Of a stretch of DNA of 64,000 nt, positions 41,906-57,147 are shown in pieces. The notes beneath the pieces are model-generated. The model saw only the letters and a list, made by a program, of their open reading frames with translations, had not been told where the DNA came from and made no database searches. The stretch comes from Chryseobacterium sp. MA9. GTDB taxonomy: Bacteria > Bacteroidota > Bacteroidia > Flavobacteriales > Weeksellaceae. How positions within the stretch are numbered: the first letter of the stretch is position 1; every line of letters begins with the position of its first letter. The position numbers and the translations under genes were made by a program. The stretch spans positions 3,410,001 to 3,474,000 of the forward strand of contig NZ_CP075170.1 in NCBI RefSeq assembly GCF_024399315.1. Reading direction: 5' to 3'.

Positions 41906-42784
41906 ATGATCCTCGAAAACGTAGATACTGTAAATGATATCAGTAAAGAAGATTTTCAGAAGAATTATTTTAAAAAGCAAAAACCTCTTTTAATCAAGAA
42001 TTTTGCCAGTCGATGGGATGCCTTTGACAAATGGAACCTGGCTTACATCCGGGAAAAAGCGGGAGATCAGGAAGTTCCGCTGTATGACAATAAGCCTGCG
42101 GATGCTGCCAAAAGCTCCGATGCTCCGGTAGCCCAAATGAAAATGAAGGAATATATTGATACCATAAAAAGTAAACCTTCAGATCTGCGTATCTTTTTCT
42201 ATATCATTACAGACAGGCTTCCTGAACTGCTGAAAAATTTCACATATCCGGACCTTGGAATAAAGTTTTTTAAAAGACTTCCAACGTTATTCTTCGGGGG
42301 AAGTGAAGCCCATGTTTTAATGCATTATGATGTGGATTTGGGTGATTTTATGCATATCCATTTCGAAGGAAAGAAAAGAATTCTTTTGTTTGATCAGAAA
42401 CAGTCTCCATTTTTATATAAAGTTCCTTTATCTGTTCATACAGTTTATGAGCTGGATTATGAAAACCCTGATTATGAAAAGTTTCCGGCCTTACAATATG
42501 CCAAAGGATATGAAATTTTTATGGAGCATGGTGATGCTCTTTTTATTCCGGGAGCTTTCTGGCACTTCAACAGGTATCTGGAACCGGGTTTTTCTCTTTC
42601 ACTGAGAGCGCTTCCCAATAAACCGAATGTATTTGCCAATATGCTGTATCACGTTTTTATTATGAGATATACAGATAAACTCATGCGTAAACTTTTTAAA
42701 GCTAAATGGGTGAATTACAAACAGAAATGGGCTTACAAGAAAAGCTCAGAAGCATTGGAAAAACATCTGAAAGCAGAAAGATAA
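41906..42784 (+). CDS. JmjC-like (cupin) 2-oxoglutarate/Fe(II) oxygenase-like protein
   Basis: 292 residues. The cupin-like fold carries the Fe(II) ligands His140 and Asp142 (MHYDVD) and His220 (FIPGAFWHF), spaced as in JmjC-type hydroxylases. The C-terminal helical tail (KLFKAKWVNYKQKWAYKK) is basic. The family includes protein and ribosomal hydroxylases, but its substrate here is unknown. Confidence 0.82.
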   Translation: MILENVDTVNDISKEDFQKNYFKKQKPLLIKNFASRWDAFDKWNLAYIREKAGDQEVPLYDNKPADAAKSSDAPVAQMKMKEYIDTIKSKPSDLRIFFYIITDRLPELLKNFTYPDLGIKFFKRLPTLFFGGSEAHVLMHYDVDLGDFMHIHFEGKKRILLFDQKQSPFLYKVPLSVHTVYELDYENPDYEKFPALQYAKGYEIFMEHGDALFIPGAFWHFNRYLEPGFSLSLRALPNKPNVFANMLYHVFIMRYTDKLMRKLFKAKWVNYKQKWAYKKSSEALEKHLKAER

Positions 42785-43555: not shown

Positions 43556-46147
43556 ATGGCTAAATCGAAGAAGGAAACCCCATTAATGACACAGTACAAT
43601 ACCATCAAGGGTAAATACCCGGATGCACTTTTGCTTTTCAGGGTAGGGGACTTTTATGAAACTTTTGGGCAGGATGCCGTGAAAACATCCCAGATCCTTG
43701 GTATTGTTCTTACCAAAAGAAACAATGGGGAAGGAAGTGTGGAACTGGCAGGGTTTCCGCATCATTCAATAGATTCTTATCTTCCGAAACTGGTAAGAGC
43801 GGGAATGAGAGTGGCAATTTGTGATCAGCTGGAAGACCCTAAAATGGTGAAAGGAATTGTAAAAAGAGGGGTCACCGAATTGGTTACACCGGGAGTTACC
43901 TTCAATGATCAGGTCTTAAATTCAAAAAAGAATAATTTCCTGCTTTCTTTACACAAAGAAAAAGAGAAATATGGAATTGCTTTGGTAGATATTTCTACAG
44001 GAGAATTTCTGGTAAGTGAAGGAAACCTGGAAAAGCTGCTCCATATTGTCAATACTTTTGATCCCAGTGAGATTATTTATCAGAGAAGTGTACAGATTCC
44101 GGAGCAGATTAAGAATAAGAGTGCCTTTAAACTGGAAGACTGGGCTTTCCAGTATAATTTTGCCTACGAGAAGTTAACGAATCATTTTAAAACCAATTCT
44201 TTAAAAGGATTTGGCGTAGAAAACCTTCCGTTGGCTATTACTGCAGCAGGAGCTATTTTTGCGTATCTGGTAGAAGATACTCACCATAATCTGCTGGCTC
44301 ATATTACAAAACTGCAGATCATTCCACAGGAAGATTATCTGATGATGGATAATTTTACCCTGAGAAACCTGGAAATTGTTTATCCAAGTAATCCACAAGG
44401 GAAATCACTGTTAGATATCATTGATAAAACCTCTACACCAATGGGGGGAAGATTATTGAGAAGAAGAATCATTCTTCCTTTAAAATCAGTGGATGAGATT
44501 ATGAGAAGACTTTCCCTGATTGATTTCTTAAATGTAAATGACCATCTTAAATATGAGATCTGCCAGCTTCTGAAGTCGATTTCTGATCTTGACCGATTAA
44601 TGGGAAAACTGGCTGCAGAGAAAATTTCGCCTAAAGAACTGGGATATCTTCGCCAAAGTTTAATCAATATCCATAAAATCAAAGCATTATTGCATCCTCA
44701 TGCGGATGTACTGGCTTGGCTTGAACCTTTGTTTGATCTTGAAGAATTGATTAAGTTCCTGCAGAATCATCTTAATGAAGAACTTCCGGTAAGCATTGCC
44801 AAAGGAAATATTATTAAAGAAGGTGTTTCTGAAGAATTGGACAGACTGAGAAACCTTCAGAGCAAAGGACGCGGTTTTCTGGATGAAATGTGCCAGAGAG
44901 AAATTGAAAGAACAGGTATTACCAGTCTTAAAATTGATTTTAATAACGTTTTCGGATACTATATTGAAGTTCGAAATACTCATAAAGATAAAGTTCCGGA
45001 TGATTGGTTGAGAAAACAAACCTTAGTGAATGCTGAAAGATATATTACCGAAGAATTAAAGGAATATGAAAGCCAGATCCTGGGTGCCGAAGAAAAAATA
45101 GGCGTTCTGGAAACTTCGCTATACAGAAATTTATGTGCGGAAACAATGGTTTATATTGATCAGATCCAAGGGAACTCCAATATCATTGCTCAGCTTGATG
45201 TGGCAGCCGGACTATCTGAACTGGCGGTTTCTGAGAGTTATACAAAACCCATTTTAAATGACGGGTATGCTGTCGATTTAAAGGAAGCCAGACATCCGAT
45301 CATTGAGAATGCACTTCCACTGGGTGAAAAGTATATTCCGAATGATATCTTCCTGGATAAAGACTCCCAACAGATCATTATGGTAACGGGGCCGAACATG
45401 GCCGGTAAATCGGCAATTCTGCGCCAGACGGCTATTGTTTGTCTTTTGGCTCAGATAGGAAGTTTTGTGCCTGCAAAACATGCTGAAATCGGAATGTTGG
45501 ATAAGATCTTCACAAGGGTGGGGGCTACAGACAATATCTCTGCAGGCGAATCTACTTTCATGGTAGAAATGAACGAGGCCGCCAATATTCTGAATAATAT
45601 TTCAGAGCGAAGCCTGATTTTGCTGGATGAAATCGGTCGTGGAACTTCCACTTATGACGGAGTTTCTATTGCATGGGCGATTGCAGAATATCTTCATCAG
45701 CATCCAACGCAAGCTAAGACTTTGTTTGCAACGCATTATCATGAACTGAATGAAATGACAGTCAATTTTGAAAGGGTGAAAAATTTTCACGTTTCTATTC
45801 AGGAAAATAAGGGAAATATCATTTTCCTGAGAAAACTGATTCCGGGTGGAAGCGAGCACAGTTTTGGTATCCATGTGGCAAAACTGGCCGGAATGCCTGC
45901 TAAAGTGGTCAACAGAGCAAACGAAATTCTTAAAACACTTGAAGCGAGCAGAACGCAAGGAAGCGGAGGCACTTCAGAAAGTATCAAGAGAGTGACTGAG
46001 GAAAATATGCAGCTCTCCTTCTTCCAGCTGGATGATCCTGTTCTGGAAAACATCCGCGAGGAGCTGACAAAAATAGATATCAATACGCTGACGCCTATTG
46101 AAGCTTTAATGAAGCTTAATTCGATAAAAAAAATGATTGGAGGGTAA
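43556..46147 (+). CDS. mutS: DNA mismatch repair protein MutS
   Basis: An 863-residue mismatch-recognition ATPase. The mismatch-wedge motif F-Y-E is at 33-35 (VGDFYETFG). It is followed by the connector, lever/clamp domains and the ATPase with Walker A VTGPNMAGKSAILRQT (about residue 612), TRVGATDNISAGESTFMVEM and FATHYHEL. The C-terminal helix-turn-helix dimerisation region follows. Its last codons are part of the terminator shared with the peptide cluster. No mutL is adjacent. Confidence 0.96.
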   Translation: MAKSKKETPLMTQYNTIKGKYPDALLLFRVGDFYETFGQDAVKTSQILGIVLTKRNNGEGSVELAGFPHHSIDSYLPKLVRAGMRVAICDQLEDPKMVKGIVKRGVTELVTPGVTFNDQVLNSKKNNFLLSLHKEKEKYGIALVDISTGEFLVSEGNLEKLLHIVNTFDPSEIIYQRSVQIPEQIKNKSAFKLEDWAFQYNFAYEKLTNHFKTNSLKGFGVENLPLAITAAGAIFAYLVEDTHHNLLAHITKLQIIPQEDYLMMDNFTLRNLEIVYPSNPQGKSLLDIIDKTSTPMGGRLLRRRIILPLKSVDEIMRRLSLIDFLNVNDHLKYEICQLLKSISDLDRLMGKLAAEKISPKELGYLRQSLINIHKIKALLHPHADVLAWLEPLFDLEELIKFLQNHLNEELPVSIAKGNIIKEGVSEELDRLRNLQSKGRGFLDEMCQREIERTGITSLKIDFNNVFGYYIEVRNTHKDKVPDDWLRKQTLVNAERYITEELKEYESQILGAEEKIGVLETSLYRNLCAETMVYIDQIQGNSNIIAQLDVAAGLSELAVSESYTKPILNDGYAVDLKEARHPIIENALPLGEKYIPNDIFLDKDSQQIIMVTGPNMAGKSAILRQTAIVCLLAQIGSFVPAKHAEIGMLDKIFTRVGATDNISAGESTFMVEMNEAANILNNISERSLILLDEIGRGTSTYDGVSIAWAIAEYLHQHPTQAKTLFATHYHELNEMTVNFERVKNFHVSIQENKGNIIFLRKLIPGGSEHSFGIHVAKLAGMPAKVVNRANEILKTLEASRTQGSGGTSESIKRVTEENMQLSFFQLDDPVLENIREELTKIDINTLTPIEALMKLNSIKKMIGG

Positions 46148-46160
46148 TCCAATCATTTTT
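46127..46160. terminator. Bidirectional terminator over the mutS stop codon
   Basis: AAATGATTGGA / TCCAATCATTT, an 11-bp perfect stem with a 6-nt loop that contains part of the mutS TAA, flanked by A and T runs. It ends mutS on the plus strand and the D-E peptide unit on the minus strand. Confidence 0.9.
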
Positions 46161-46179
46161 TATTGTGTTAAAGTTTTAA

Positions 46180-46338
46180 TTAGCAGCAATAGCCGTCTTT
46201 ACCTCTCGGTCCAATAATAAGGAAATGGCTTACTCCTCTTAGTTTGCATAAACCTTCTGCGCATGCGGCAGCGCTTCCGTTGATTTCTTTAAGCTCAGTT
46301 TTGGTGAGTCTTCTTGTTGTAAGGATTGAATTTTTCAT
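46180..46338 (-). CDS. Bacteriocin-like precursor peptide E
   Basis: A 52-residue small gene with ATG at 46338 and TAA at 46182-46180. The leader MKNSILTTRRLTKTELKEIN is followed by GS in place of GG. The core has C-A-E-G-L-C and ends GPRGKDGYCC. The leader fits the double-glycine consensus (L-x-x-x-E-L-x-x-I-x-G-[GS]) recognised by C39-type ABC transporter peptidases. It is 30 bp downstream of D and was probably transcribed with it, ending at the mutS terminator. It is a paralogue of four neighbours. Its maturation and target are unknown. Confidence 0.8.
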   Translation of the reverse strand: MKNSILTTRRLTKTELKEINGSAAACAEGLCKLRGVSHFLIIGPRGKDGYCC

Positions 46339-46368
46339 TTTCGTCCTGTTTAAGTATTCTCAACTTGG

Positions 46369-46533
46369 TTAACAGCAAAATCCGTCCTGCATGCCAGGCA
46401 CTCCTGAGCGTTCTTCTCCGGTGTGCGGATCTGTACAGCTTATGACTCTTGGGCAGATAGGTCTCAATCCACCGCTGATTTCTTTAAGCTCATTTTTACT
46501 AAGCTTTCTTTTTTGATTTTTTAAATTTTTCAT
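46369..46533 (-). CDS. Bacteriocin-like precursor peptide D
   Basis: 54 residues: ATG at 46533, TAA at 46371-46369. The leader contains QKRKLSKNELKEISGG, an excellent match to the canonical L-S-x-x-E-L-x-x-I-x-G-G double-glycine leader. The core has C-P-R-V-I-S-C (one residue longer between cysteines than its relatives) and ends GMQDGFCC. It is first gene of the D-E unit. Confidence 0.82.
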   Translation of the reverse strand: MKNLKNQKRKLSKNELKEISGGLRPICPRVISCTDPHTGEERSGVPGMQDGFCC

Positions 46534-46555
46534 AATAATTTGAATTTGGTAAAAG

Positions 46556-46586
46556 CTAATTTACACTTTATTTTTATTGATTCAAA
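46556..46586 (-). promoter_or_regulatory. Probable promoter of the D-E peptide unit
   Basis: Minus strand TTTG (46586-46583), 19 bp, TAAATTAG (46563-46556), one mismatch to TAnnTTTG. The start codon of D is 23 bp downstream. Confidence 0.45.
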
Positions 46587-46635
46587 ATATTGCTATTCAA
46601 ATTGTTATATTTTTTTTGGCTATCAATTATAAGTT

Positions 46636-46669
46636 CAAAAAAAGATTGAGGGGGTTGCCCTCAATCTTT
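46636..46669 (-). terminator. Terminator of the A-B-C peptide unit
   Basis: Minus strand AAAGATTGAGGG / CCCTCAATCTTT, a 12-bp perfect stem with a 5-nt loop and seven T residues. It lies 25 bp after the stop of peptide C. Confidence 0.9.
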
Positions 46670-46693
46670 ATATCTAACAAAGCTTTTTTGATA

Positions 46694-46852
46694 TTAACAG
46701 CAATATCCGTCTCTTCCTACAGGTCCGATTACAAACTCGCCGTCACCTCTATCACAAAGTCCTTCCGGGCATACAATAGGTCCGTTGCCTCCGTTAATTT
46801 CTTTCAATTCGCTTTTGCTAAGCTTTCTTTTCTGAATATTTGATTTTTTCAT
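46694..46852 (-). CDS. Bacteriocin-like precursor peptide C
   Basis: 52 residues: ATG at 46852, TAA at 46696-46694. Leader: QKRKLSKSELKEINGG. The core contains C-P-E-G-L-C and ends GPVGRDGYCC. It is the last gene of the A-B-C unit, 29 bp after B and just before a strong terminator. Sequence identity in leader and last ten residues contrasts with a variable core, as in multi-gene peptide families. Confidence 0.82.
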   Translation of the reverse strand: MKKSNIQKRKLSKSELKEINGGNGPIVCPEGLCDRGDGEFVIGPVGRDGYCC

Positions 46853-46881
46853 AGTAATTTGATTATTAAAGTTTTAATTGA

Positions 46882-47037
46882 TTAGCAGCAAAATCCATTT
46901 TTGTCACCAGCACCAAGCTGCCATTCTTCAAATTCTCCCATACGACAGAACCCATCAAAGCATAATCTTCCGCTTCCTTTAATATCTTTCAATTCACTTT
47001 TTGTCAATTTTCTTTTTTGAATGTTTGATTTTTTCAT
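46882..47037 (-). CDS. Bacteriocin-like precursor peptide B
   Basis: 51 residues: ATG at 47037, TAA at 46884-46882. The leader QKRKLTKSELKDIKGS has GS instead of GG. The core has C-F-D-G-F-C and ends GDKNGFCC. Its core is acidic (MGEFEEWQ). It lies 42 bp after A and 29 bp before C on the same strand. Confidence 0.8.
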   Translation of the reverse strand: MKKSNIQKRKLTKSELKDIKGSGRLCFDGFCRMGEFEEWQLGAGDKNGFCC

Positions 47038-47079
47038 GGTAATTTTAGTTTTGATTTGATTTTTCTTGAAATTTTTTGA

Positions 47080-47241
47080 TTAGCAGCAGAATCCGTCTTT
47101 TCCTACAAGGCCTGGTACCATCTCTCCTGAATCAGGCTGCATACAGAACCCGCGAAGACATCTTGGAGGAAGTGCCCCTCCGTTAATTTCTTTCAATTCG
47201 CTTTTTACAAGCTTTCTCTTTTGAGTGTTTGAATTTTTCAT
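47080..47241 (-). CDS. Bacteriocin-like precursor peptide A
   Basis: 53 residues: ATG at 47241, TAA at 47082-47080. The leader MKNSNTQKRKLVKSELKEIN is followed by GG. The core has C-L-R-G-F-C and ends GLVGKDGFCC. It is the first gene of the A-B-C unit, with a TATATTTG promoter box 23 bp before its start. No transporter, protease, lanthionine or radical-SAM enzyme gene occurs in the window next to it. Confidence 0.82.
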   Translation of the reverse strand: MKNSNTQKRKLVKSELKEINGGALPPRCLRGFCMQPDSGEMVPGLVGKDGFCC

Positions 47242-47264: not shown

Positions 47265-47272
47265 CAAATATA
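47265..47272 (-). promoter_or_regulatory. -7 box of the A-B-C peptide unit
   Basis: TATATTTG on the minus strand is a full TAnnTTTG match. No TTG is visible at the usual distance, so activation by a regulator is possible. Confidence 0.5.
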
Positions 47273-47322
47273 TAAAAATGATTTATATAATTCTATTAGT
47301 TGTGAAAAAATTAACATATCTG

Positions 47323-47355: not shown

Positions 47356-48184
47356 TTATAAATGATTGTATTCGTAAGTATTAATGTCTGTGGAACCTGT
47401 AGCTGTGGTTCCTGTTTTATCATAATAGCTTCGGGTTTCTTTTGTAGGATAACCACTGGTATTATATTCAAAAATAGATTTAAATATTGTCCATTCAGTT
47501 CCGGTTCCATTATTGTAACTGATGATATGATTGTAGCTTAGCGTGTTATGTGCAGATCCGCTTTCATCTTCATTGTCAATGATTTTTAGGTATCCGGTAA
47601 TGTTTTTCAAAGGAGCATTTTTTGTATCATATACCACGGTCTTTAAGGTAGAAGTTGCTGTTTCAGTAGTATTATTTTGAGTTCTTGAAAGAGTGCCGTT
47701 CCAGCTGCTCATCGAGCCATCAGCATTCAGCACAGCATTTCTTGTTTCAGTTCTTATTGATGCTGAAGTAGATGCAGTATATACTATTTTTACATTGTTA
47801 TTCGCTTGCTAAGTATAGTTAGATTCGGAACTCCATAGTCCACCGAAATCAGTCCCGCTAGTTGTTTTTTTGATATCTGCCATTTCCGTCGTAAGTATAT
47901 TTAGTAGTAAGAGAGGTATTTGAACCATTGACTACAGATTGTGAGATAAGATCACCAGAATAGGTAAATGTAGTTACACTTCCTCCAGTAAGATTTTTGA
48001 TCTGAGCAATTTTTGAACCGTTATAAGAAAACGTTAAAACATCTCCGTCCATCGTTATTTTCGTTACCAGAACCGGATTGTTATCATTGTTGTTTCCATT
48101 GTTATTAGATGAATTAATATTATCGTTGCTGCTTGAGCATGATGCCTAAAAGAAAATTGGCAGAAGCAAATAAGTTTTTTTCAT
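47356..48184 (-). pseudogene. Lipoprotein gene broken by two TAG codons and a frameshift
   Basis: From ATG 48184 the product would start MKKTYLLLPIFF, then a TAG interrupts the lipobox just before ASCSSS. The frame then runs through an Asn-rich linker and YD-like strands (DGDVLTFSYNGSKIAQI, FTYSGDLISQS, KYTYDGNGR). Near 47870, at a run of A residues, a one-base shift is needed to continue into TTSGTDFGGLWSSESNYT. A second TAG follows, then an open frame ends at 47356 with DINTYEYNHL. The intact ancestor was probably a ~275-residue lipoprotein with beta-rich repeats. Three lesions make loss of function near certain unless read errors explain them. Confidence 0.8.
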
Positions 48185-48315: not shown

Positions 48316-48804
48316 ATGAGAGACTTAATAAAAATATTCACTATACTTCTGTTTGGTATGGTTTGTAAAGCCCAGCAGACTGAAGTTTCTGTGATAAAAT
48401 ATGAAGATCTGGAGAAGAGAATTCAACAGGAAAAAGATAAGTTGCTGGTTGTCAACTTCTGGTCTACAACCTGTGGGCCATGTGTAAAGGAGCTTCCTCA
48501 CTTTATGGAAGTGAATGCTGAGTTTACAGATAATCAGAAATTTAAAATGATTTTGGTTTCACTGGACAGGCTGGCAGATAAAGAAAGAGTATTAAAATTC
48601 ATTAAAAATAAAAATCTTACTGCTGAGGTCCTCTTACTGGATGATATTAAAAGAATGAATACCTGGATTCCCAAGTTTGAAAAAGACTGGGATGGGAATA
48701 TTCCCGTAACGCTGTTCTATAAAAACGGGATGAAATTTCATTTCAATGATGGTGAAATGAGCAAAGAAGATCTTGAAAAAACAATCAAAGAAAATCTACA
48801 ATAA
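48316..48804 (+). CDS. TlpA/ResA-type thioredoxin-like protein
   Basis: 162 residues with a signal peptide (MRDLIKIFTILLFGMVCKAQ). A thioredoxin fold carries the redox pair C53-G-P-C56 in NFWSTTCGPCVKELP. Such periplasmic proteins usually reduce disulfides, for example in cytochrome c maturation. It lies 10 bp before another thioredoxin-fold gene; the two are an operon. Confidence 0.88.
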   Translation: MRDLIKIFTILLFGMVCKAQQTEVSVIKYEDLEKRIQQEKDKLLVVNFWSTTCGPCVKELPHFMEVNAEFTDNQKFKMILVSLDRLADKERVLKFIKNKNLTAEVLLLDDIKRMNTWIPKFEKDWDGNIPVTLFYKNGMKFHFNDGEMSKEDLEKTIKENLQ

Positions 48805-48814
48805 ATAATCTATT

Positions 48815-49468
48815 ATGAAAAACCTGAAAATTTTAGTAACTGCACTGATCGTTGGGCTTGGATTACTGAGCTTTACAACAACAGATCATGATAAAAACAA
48901 AACTCAGAAAGAGAATATTTCTGCAAAAGGCTATGAAGTAGGAGATGAAGCGGCGGATTTTAAGCTTAAAAATATTGACGGCAAAATGGTTTCTTTAAGC
49001 GATTTTAAGAGTGCAAAAGGATTTATTGTTGTATTTACCTGCAATCATTGCCCATACGCCAAGAAATATGAAGACAGAATTATTGAGCTGGATAAAAAAT
49101 ATAAAGATCAGGGATATCCGGTAATAGCCATTAACCCGAATGATCCTAATGTACAGCCTGAAGACGGTTACCAGCAGATGATTGAAAGAGCAAAGCAGAA
49201 AGGATTTACTTTTCCGTATCTGATAGATGAGGGACAGAAAATTTATCCGCAGTACGGAGCTACAAAGACACCTCATGTTTTTGTACTGAAGAAAGAAAAC
49301 GGAAAGAATATCGTGAAATATATTGGTGCTATCGACAATAATTATGATAACCCGAATGATGTATCCGAATATTATGCTCAGGATGCCGTAAATGCTCTGA
49401 TAAAAGGAGATCCTGTAAAAATGACAAAAACAGTAGCTATCGGATGTACAATTAAAGTAAAGAAATAA
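48815..49468 (+). CDS. Thioredoxin-fold redoxin with CNHC motif
   Basis: 217 residues with an N-terminal hydrophobic signal (ILVTALIVGLGLLSF). The peroxiredoxin/redoxin-like fold is recognised from GDEAADFKLKNIDGK, FTCNHCPYAKKYEDRI (Cys76-x-x-Cys79) and TPHVFVLKKENGK. Similar proteins are named 'thioredoxin family protein' in Bacteroidota; electron partners are unknown. It follows the TlpA-like gene and ends at a strong terminator. Confidence 0.87.
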   Translation: MKNLKILVTALIVGLGLLSFTTTDHDKNKTQKENISAKGYEVGDEAADFKLKNIDGKMVSLSDFKSAKGFIVVFTCNHCPYAKKYEDRIIELDKKYKDQGYPVIAINPNDPNVQPEDGYQQMIERAKQKGFTFPYLIDEGQKIYPQYGATKTPHVFVLKKENGKNIVKYIGAIDNNYDNPNDVSEYYAQDAVNALIKGDPVKMTKTVAIGCTIKVKK

Positions 49469-56325: not shown

Positions 56326-57147
56326 ATGATTACACCAGAAAAAGAAATCCCGGTTCATCATCTGACTTCTGAAAAATTTCAGATGAGTACTCTGAGTGCG
56401 GCAGGCCCTGAAAATTTTCATGATGTTCACCGGCATAATTTTTTTGAAATTATCTGGTTCAGAGAGGTGTATGAAAACAGCCGTTTAGAGCTGGACTTTG
56501 AAAGCTACAAACTTGAGAACAATCAAATCTGTATTATTGCACCAGGACAGGCATTCAATATGAAACTGGAAGGAGAGGAAGGATATGCAATGGCAATAAG
56601 CAGGGAAATTTTCAACGAAGCATGTGATATAGAATCGGTACTCACAGGAGGAGAACTCCCCTTTTTTTTAAATCCGAAAAATGAAAAAACCTGCAGTACA
56701 ATTATATCACTGATTGAGCAGGAATATAAAACATCATCAAGAACGGAGCTCTTAAAGGCATATCTGAAAGCATTTTGTATCATCATCGGAGAGCAAATCA
56801 ACCCTCAGGAACCTTTATTGAATGACCGCCAACGCATTCAGGAACTGGTGGGGCTTATTGAGAAGCATTATATAGTGCATAAAGAAACAGTTTTCTACGC
56901 AGATCAATTAAAGATAAGTACCCATCATCTTAATGATATTGTGCGCCTTTTGAGAGGAACAACAGTAAAAAAAATGATTTCCCAGCGTCTTATCCTGGAA
57001 GCCAAAAGAGAGCTTAGCTTTGGAGCTCTCACGGTAAAGGAAATTGCTTTTAAACTAGGTTTTAATGATGCTTCATATTTTTCAAGGTTTTTTAAGAAAC
57101 AGACCAGCCAAAATCCCGACAGTTTTAAGAATAATGAAAAAAAATAA
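56326..57147 (+). CDS. AraC-family transcriptional regulator
   Basis: 273 residues. The N-terminal cupin-like sensing domain (about 1-150) has HDVHRHNFFEIIWF, and two C-terminal helix-turn-helix motifs (about 165-270) include TVKEIAFKLGFNDASYFSRFFKKQT, read here in two parts. A paired direct repeat upstream of the Bcr/CflA pump gene (57212-57240) is the likely operator. The ligand is unknown. Confidence 0.88.
   Translation: MITPEKEIPVHHLTSEKFQMSTLSAAGPENFHDVHRHNFFEIIWFREVYENSRLELDFESYKLENNQICIIAPGQAFNMKLEGEEGYAMAISREIFNEACDIESVLTGGELPFFLNPKNEKTCSTIISLIEQEYKTSSRTELLKAYLKAFCIIIGEQINPQEPLLNDRQRIQELVGLIEKHYIVHKETVFYADQLKISTHHLNDIVRLLRGTTVKKMISQRLILEAKRELSFGALTVKEIAFKLGFNDASYFSRFFKKQTSQNPDSFKNNEKK

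Follow-up and report, generated by a model that had tools for sequence, protein, structure and literature searches.

On the minus strand of the window (the whole 64,000-nucleotide stretch of Chryseobacterium sp. MA9 DNA that was analysed), five paralogous genes of 51-54 codons each occupy positions 46180-47241 and belong to a genuine subfamily, apparently not described before, of a peptide class that is catalogued but functionally unstudied. The best explanation of the cluster as a whole, which we hold with moderate confidence, is that it encodes bacteroidetocin-like antibacterial peptides that are exported in trans by a C39 ABC transporter and its HlyD partner and carry two disulfides. Each of the five genes would specify a precursor from which a peptide of about 30 residues is secreted. 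The first 21-22 residues of the precursor would form the export leader, to be read by an ABC exporter with a C39 peptidase domain, whose gene lies about 0.6 Mb from the cluster together with that of an HlyD-type adaptor. Cleavage by the exporter after GG or GS would release the core, whose four cysteines would be oxidised to two disulfides by the VKOR-DsbA fusion of the exporter locus; the resulting staple would hold a hairpin and involve the C-terminal Cys-Cys. Once mature, the peptides would work extracellularly, most likely as a small mixture of antibacterials made without immunity proteins.

Five genes and their family in Chryseobacterium

In the direction of transcription, gene 1 (47080-47241, 53 residues, core ALPPRCLRGFCMQPDSGEMVPGLVGKDGFCC) is followed by gene 2 (46882-47037, 51 residues, GS at the leader end, core GRLCFDGFCRMGEFEEWQLGAGDKNGFCC), gene 3 (46694-46852, 52 residues, core NGPIVCPEGLCDRGDGEFVIGPVGRDGYCC), gene 4 (46369-46533, 54 residues, core LRPICPRVISCTDPHTGEERSGVPGMQDGFCC) and gene 5 (46180-46338, 52 residues, GS at the leader end, core AAACAEGLCKLRGVSHFLIIGPRGKDGYCC), all on the minus strand. 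The list of open reading frames and an alignment of the translations uphold what an earlier note had read from this DNA—five short paralogs with a leader of the double-glycine type, a Cx4C pair (Cx5C in one) and a conserved end. The leader follows L-x-K-x-E-L-K-x-I-x-G-[GSA] ahead of a short core, as in the general class of double-glycine leaders exported by C39 transporters, and 16 columns are invariant among the five peptides, including R9, L11, K13, E15, L16, K17, I19 and G21 as well as two core cysteines and the final Cys-Cys. The core cysteines are spaced as Cx4C in four of the five and as Cx5C in gene 4, while the C-terminus reads [DN]G[FY]CC in all of them. AlphaFold2 models of two paralogs place a leader helix at residues 13-19, before the GG site, in both, and predict a hairpin in the core, with strands at residues 30-34 and 40-45 in gene 3 and at 32-34 and 41-43 in the second paralog; the core pLDDT is about 84-88 in one and 74-79 in the other, the pTM values are low (0.36 and 0.32), and the disulfide pairing is not readable from the models. 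A known fold for the core was ruled out among solved structures, the best PDB match having an E-value of 2.8.

Searches of public genomes found the CC-ended family throughout a single genus, Chryseobacterium. Beyond it there were only weak, mostly leader-driven matches; they came from five genomes belonging to two further genera, and those that could be read had no CC end. The 131 members that were checked come from the window and from 41 orthologous, syntenic Chryseobacterium loci of 10-20 kb each, in which the peptide genes adjoin mutS (without full-match detection of mutS in one of the 41) and the neighbourhood is largely that of the window. Each locus holds one to six family members. Four cysteines are present in 117 of the 131 and six in the remaining 14, and a CC end with at most three residues after it is found in 130, the exception ending in CCSSPE; the terminal CC, whose strict conservation the earlier note had noticed in five peptides, is essentially invariant in the family.

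The family is not a product of chance, since synonymous differences (pS about 0.5-0.7) exceed non-synonymous ones (pN 0.08-0.35) across the checked members. The core dN/dS values by ortholog group, approximate because synonymous differences are near saturation, are 0.05 for the CAEGLC type, 0.15 for the CPRVISC type, 0.15 for the C[FW]DGFC type and 0.19 for the six-cysteine type, with 0.39 for a mixed remainder that is not one ortholog group; the core type of gene 5 is the most conserved in the genus (0.05). The five reading frames are genuine genes, and their ortholog groups are under purifying selection. The earlier note had counted absence from related genomes and a Ka/Ks near 1 as evidence against its reading; the family is present at the 41 syntenic loci, and the ortholog cores lie at 0.05-0.19. 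Its description of the core as hypervariable holds between paralogs and fails among orthologs, where the cores are on average 88% identical within the CAEGLC type and 82% identical within the C[FW]DGFC type; with the ortholog cores under purifying selection, the term thus fits the paralogs only.

In the family libraries, all five leaders match NF047798 of NCBIfam (leader_Chryseo, 'bacteriocin-like protein') below its cut-off, at 13.3, 19.8, 21.2, 15.4 and 16.0 bits against 23.5, so that the peptides are near relatives of this leader rather than formal members. Leader kind and genus are the same, but the leaders of the CC cluster are longer (MKKSNIQKRKL against MKNLKKL) and its cores end in CC. 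The bacteriocin models TIGR01847 (bacteriocin_sig) and TIGR03949 (cerein 7B/lactobin family) match the leaders weakly, one peptide lying just over the TIGR01847 cut-off; the likeness to these class II bacteriocins with double-glycine leaders is confined to the leader region, and the CC peptides differ from them in having neither core similarity nor an immunity gene nor the YGNGV motif of class IIa, which is absent from all five sequences. Membership of a Pfam family was ruled out, there being no match for the peptides. Across the family, leaders of 21-22 residues precede cores of 29-33.

A distant candidate exporter and its oxidase

Within the cluster there is no exporter, oxidase or immunity gene, and what connects cluster and exporter is therefore the common leader type together with co-occurrence. 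A local exporter or maturase was ruled out by scans of the window and its neighbours, no C39 gene being found in the window or among the neighbours at 36-58 kb. The earlier note had advised looking for C39 transporters elsewhere in the genome, and three C39 ABC transporters are indeed present there. One lies in a class I lanthipeptide-type locus (L119:4523-12402) with LanB-like, LanC-like and HlyD-like genes. Another C39 ABC/HlyD pair adjoins its own GG-type precursor of 224 residues with a DUF6973 domain (L118:4239-4913), which by its sequence looks like a protein, larger than these peptides, that is exported by means of a leader of the peptide type. The third, about 0.6 Mb from the CC cluster, is accompanied by an HlyD gene, a GG peptide and a 504-residue fusion of VKOR with a DsbA-like thioredoxin domain (L117:7523-9037).

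A C39 exporter is found in 169 of 173 genomes of the genus, over which orthologs of the VKOR-DsbA fusion are likewise spread. Of 13 related genomes examined, 12 have the fusion, with its CRVC/CRIC and CGFC motifs, in one locus with the C39 transporter, which has DCGPTCL; GG peptides are usually encoded next to these two genes or in the space separating them. The stretch fetched for the thirteenth contains no C39 gene. The N-terminal 110 or so residues of the fusion resemble a C39 domain by eye only, hhalign returning an E-value of 0.17 and a probability of 0.4% from shallow alignments, and Pfam nothing; the resemblance is suggestive, by eye, of a C39-like pseudopeptidase, which would bind leaders.

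Scattered round the chromosome of the source genome are 57 matches to leader_Chryseo at E≤1, of which 37 exceed the cut-off. Disulfide pairing predicts even numbers of cysteines, and an even core count is found in 41 of 42 GG-leader peptides of the genome (binomial p 2e-11), a set that was picked by a cysteine-blind leader pattern and includes the five cluster peptides; in one of them (L123) the pattern misplaces the boundary between leader and core, which leaves the cysteine count unaffected. Among the 173 genomes the fusion is present in 162 and missing in 11. The CC family occurs in 144 of the 162 genomes with the fusion and in none of the 11 without it (Fisher p 5e-10, genomes treated as independent), at a threshold of E≤0.01 that lets in some distant leader-only matches, and for leader_Chryseo peptides the corresponding counts are 159 of 162 and 1 of 11 (Fisher p 6e-13, shared ancestry ignored). 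Three genomes hold the fusion and lack leader_Chryseo peptides, and one counterexample (G069, loci L180-L183) has four leader_Chryseo matches and neither C39 nor fusion. The co-occurrence of peptides and fusion is phylogenetically confounded.

Candidate roles of the peptides

The closest characterised system is that of the bacteroidetocins, proposed class IIf bacteriocins of Bacteroidetes (PMC6671954, PMC8546649), which are double-glycine leader peptides with four cysteines, whose genes come with those of a C39 transporter and a thiol oxidoreductase but of no immunity protein (PMC6671954). The proposed CC system has in common with them the double-glycine leader, the four cysteines, the C39 exporter, the thiol oxidoreductase, the lack of an immunity protein and the phylum. 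The two are set apart by description, a bacteroidetocin having a leader of 15 and a mature peptide of 42 residues (PMC6671954) against 21-22 and 29-33 in the CC family, and by arrangement, since the bacteroidetocin exporter genes (transmembrane protein, thiol oxidoreductase and C39 ABC transporter) adjoin the peptide gene whereas the counterparts of the CC cluster lie far off on the chromosome. The CC family also has, unlike bacteroidetocins, one to six paralogs per locus and a near-invariant C-terminal CC. Class criteria for bacteroidetocins include killing of Bacteroidales and BamA as target. By length and gene arrangement the CC family is not a bacteroidetocin, but by analogy it may work like one. 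The intergenic gaps are 15-87 nt in 63 of 89 neighbouring peptide-gene pairs and so leave no room for immunity genes between those peptide genes. The statement of the earlier note that no described system has this combination stands for the CC-ended subfamily, for which no entry was found in the family libraries or literature searched; it does not stand for the leader class, which is held by NF047798, or for the system as a whole, of which bacteroidetocins are a characterised analogue (PMC6671954).

By this analogy antibacterial action is plausible, and it is the most likely of several candidate roles. Bacteriocins caught in an arms race less usually show ortholog conservation this strong, with core dN/dS as low as 0.05. 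A signal or a housekeeping function would fit it as well, so that signalling or another conserved role stays a candidate. Peptides exported and disulfide-bonded in the same way might act as extracellular signals or in some other conserved capacity (inter-species communication, surface or biofilm functions, protease inhibition) and not in killing, an explanation that we regard as rather unlikely, although it draws on nearly identical ortholog cores across many species at one syntenic locus, on a conserved dedicated promoter element and on the lack of immunity genes. Five distinct cores side by side and the turnover of copy number between species would be unusual for a signal, and no sensor gene was recognised within about 10 kb of the cluster, though an AraC-type regulator is encoded at 56326-57147.

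It is improbable that the peptides are substrates of RiPP enzymes (for example MNIO/DUF692, radical SAM, lanthionine or ATP-grasp enzymes), with the CC end as the modification site. Such pathways do exist in Chryseobacterium, among them that of the DUF692 enzyme ChrH (PMC10214503), the source genome has the LanB/LanC locus, and the precursors of ChrA/ChrH-type RiPPs and graspetides (PMC8939145) are likewise small ribosomal products of the same genus; moreover, TIGR04149 (rSAM-modified RiPP) matches one of the five leaders weakly. That match reaches 13.5 bits against a cut-off of 25, however, and the CC cluster differs from the known cases in that Pfam scans found no modifying enzyme among the neighbours at 36-58 kb, a neighbourhood common to the 41 loci, while even cysteine counts favour pairing of cysteine with cysteine.

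Binding of copper or zinc by the four conserved cysteines with their vicinal pair, which the earlier note had entertained, is very improbable: the even cysteine counts in all checked members and the coupling of the genus-wide exporter to a VKOR-DsbA oxidase that would form disulfides point to disulfides and leave metal binding unsupported, no metal-linked genes were recognised nearby, no histidine is conserved family-wide, and the six-cysteine subtype and other GG peptides with four or six cysteines have no common spacing.

A wider extension of the preferred antibacterial reading is offered tentatively, as possible though doubtful. Chryseobacterium might possess a venom-like repertoire of dozens of orphan disulfide-rich peptides secreted through a single exporter-oxidase system (C39 ABC, HlyD and VKOR-DsbA), of which the mutS-linked CC cluster would be one conserved core set that does without immunity genes and works broadly against bacteria or between species. 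Were this so, some 160 sequenced Chryseobacterium species would each produce small disulfide-stapled secreted peptides, a few in some species and some dozens in others, through a shared exporter and oxidase. A common environmental genus would then harbour a large, essentially unstudied peptide repertoire with the CC cluster as one conserved subfamily, the VKOR-DsbA fusion would gain a concrete role in Bacteroidota, and a genetically simple system (one exporter, one oxidase) would be available for probing the roles of orphan peptides.

Transcription units and neighbouring genes

The five genes probably form two transcription units, genes 1-3 and genes 4-5, because a strong intrinsic terminator (46638-46668, minus strand; -15.2 kcal/mol, z -5.4) follows the third gene. 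A second terminator 3' of gene 5 (46128-46165, minus strand; -14.5 kcal/mol, z -6.2) overlaps the end of mutS, which is encoded on the opposite strand. Ahead of gene 1 stands a promoter-like element that is conserved across loci, TCAC-N6-TAGA-N19-TATATTTG (47265-47305, minus strand), which we take to be the Bacteroidota -33/-7 promoter type plus an extra TCAC box. The pattern TCAC-N5..14-T[TA]GA-N17..19-TAnnTTnG occurs at 39 of 68 transcription-unit heads, related loci that are not independent, against 0.03 in mononucleotide shuffles, and 38 of these 39 copies have 6 nt as their first gap. At the head of genes 4-5 the -33/-7 part is present and TCAC absent. A genome-wide search found the promoter pattern at two places, neither in the window, and gave no sign of a regulon; the spacers it allowed would have had to be one base longer to admit the copy before gene 1.

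Two thioredoxin-like (thioredoxin/AhpC-like) genes at 48316-49468 adjoin the cluster, as they do in 32 of the 41 loci, and a redox link to the peptides is possible. Beyond mutS, a gene for a Cupin_8 protein (41906-42784) is present in 41 of 41 loci and is probably a housekeeping neighbour. Just upstream of the cluster, fragmented reading frames at 47356-48052 resemble a repeat-rich protein and are possibly a broken gene; a homologous stretch occurs in 17 of the 41 loci. Many other GG-leader peptide genes of the genome are preceded, about 20-25 nt ahead of the ATG, by the Rfam DUF805b RNA (RF02914, listed as cis-regulatory; loci L006, L009, L084, L085, L086, L087, L102, L127 and L117, with pattern copies at L197-L210). 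The RNA is absent before the CC-family genes and stands before the GG peptide of the exporter locus too, and it may co-regulate GG peptides and exporter.
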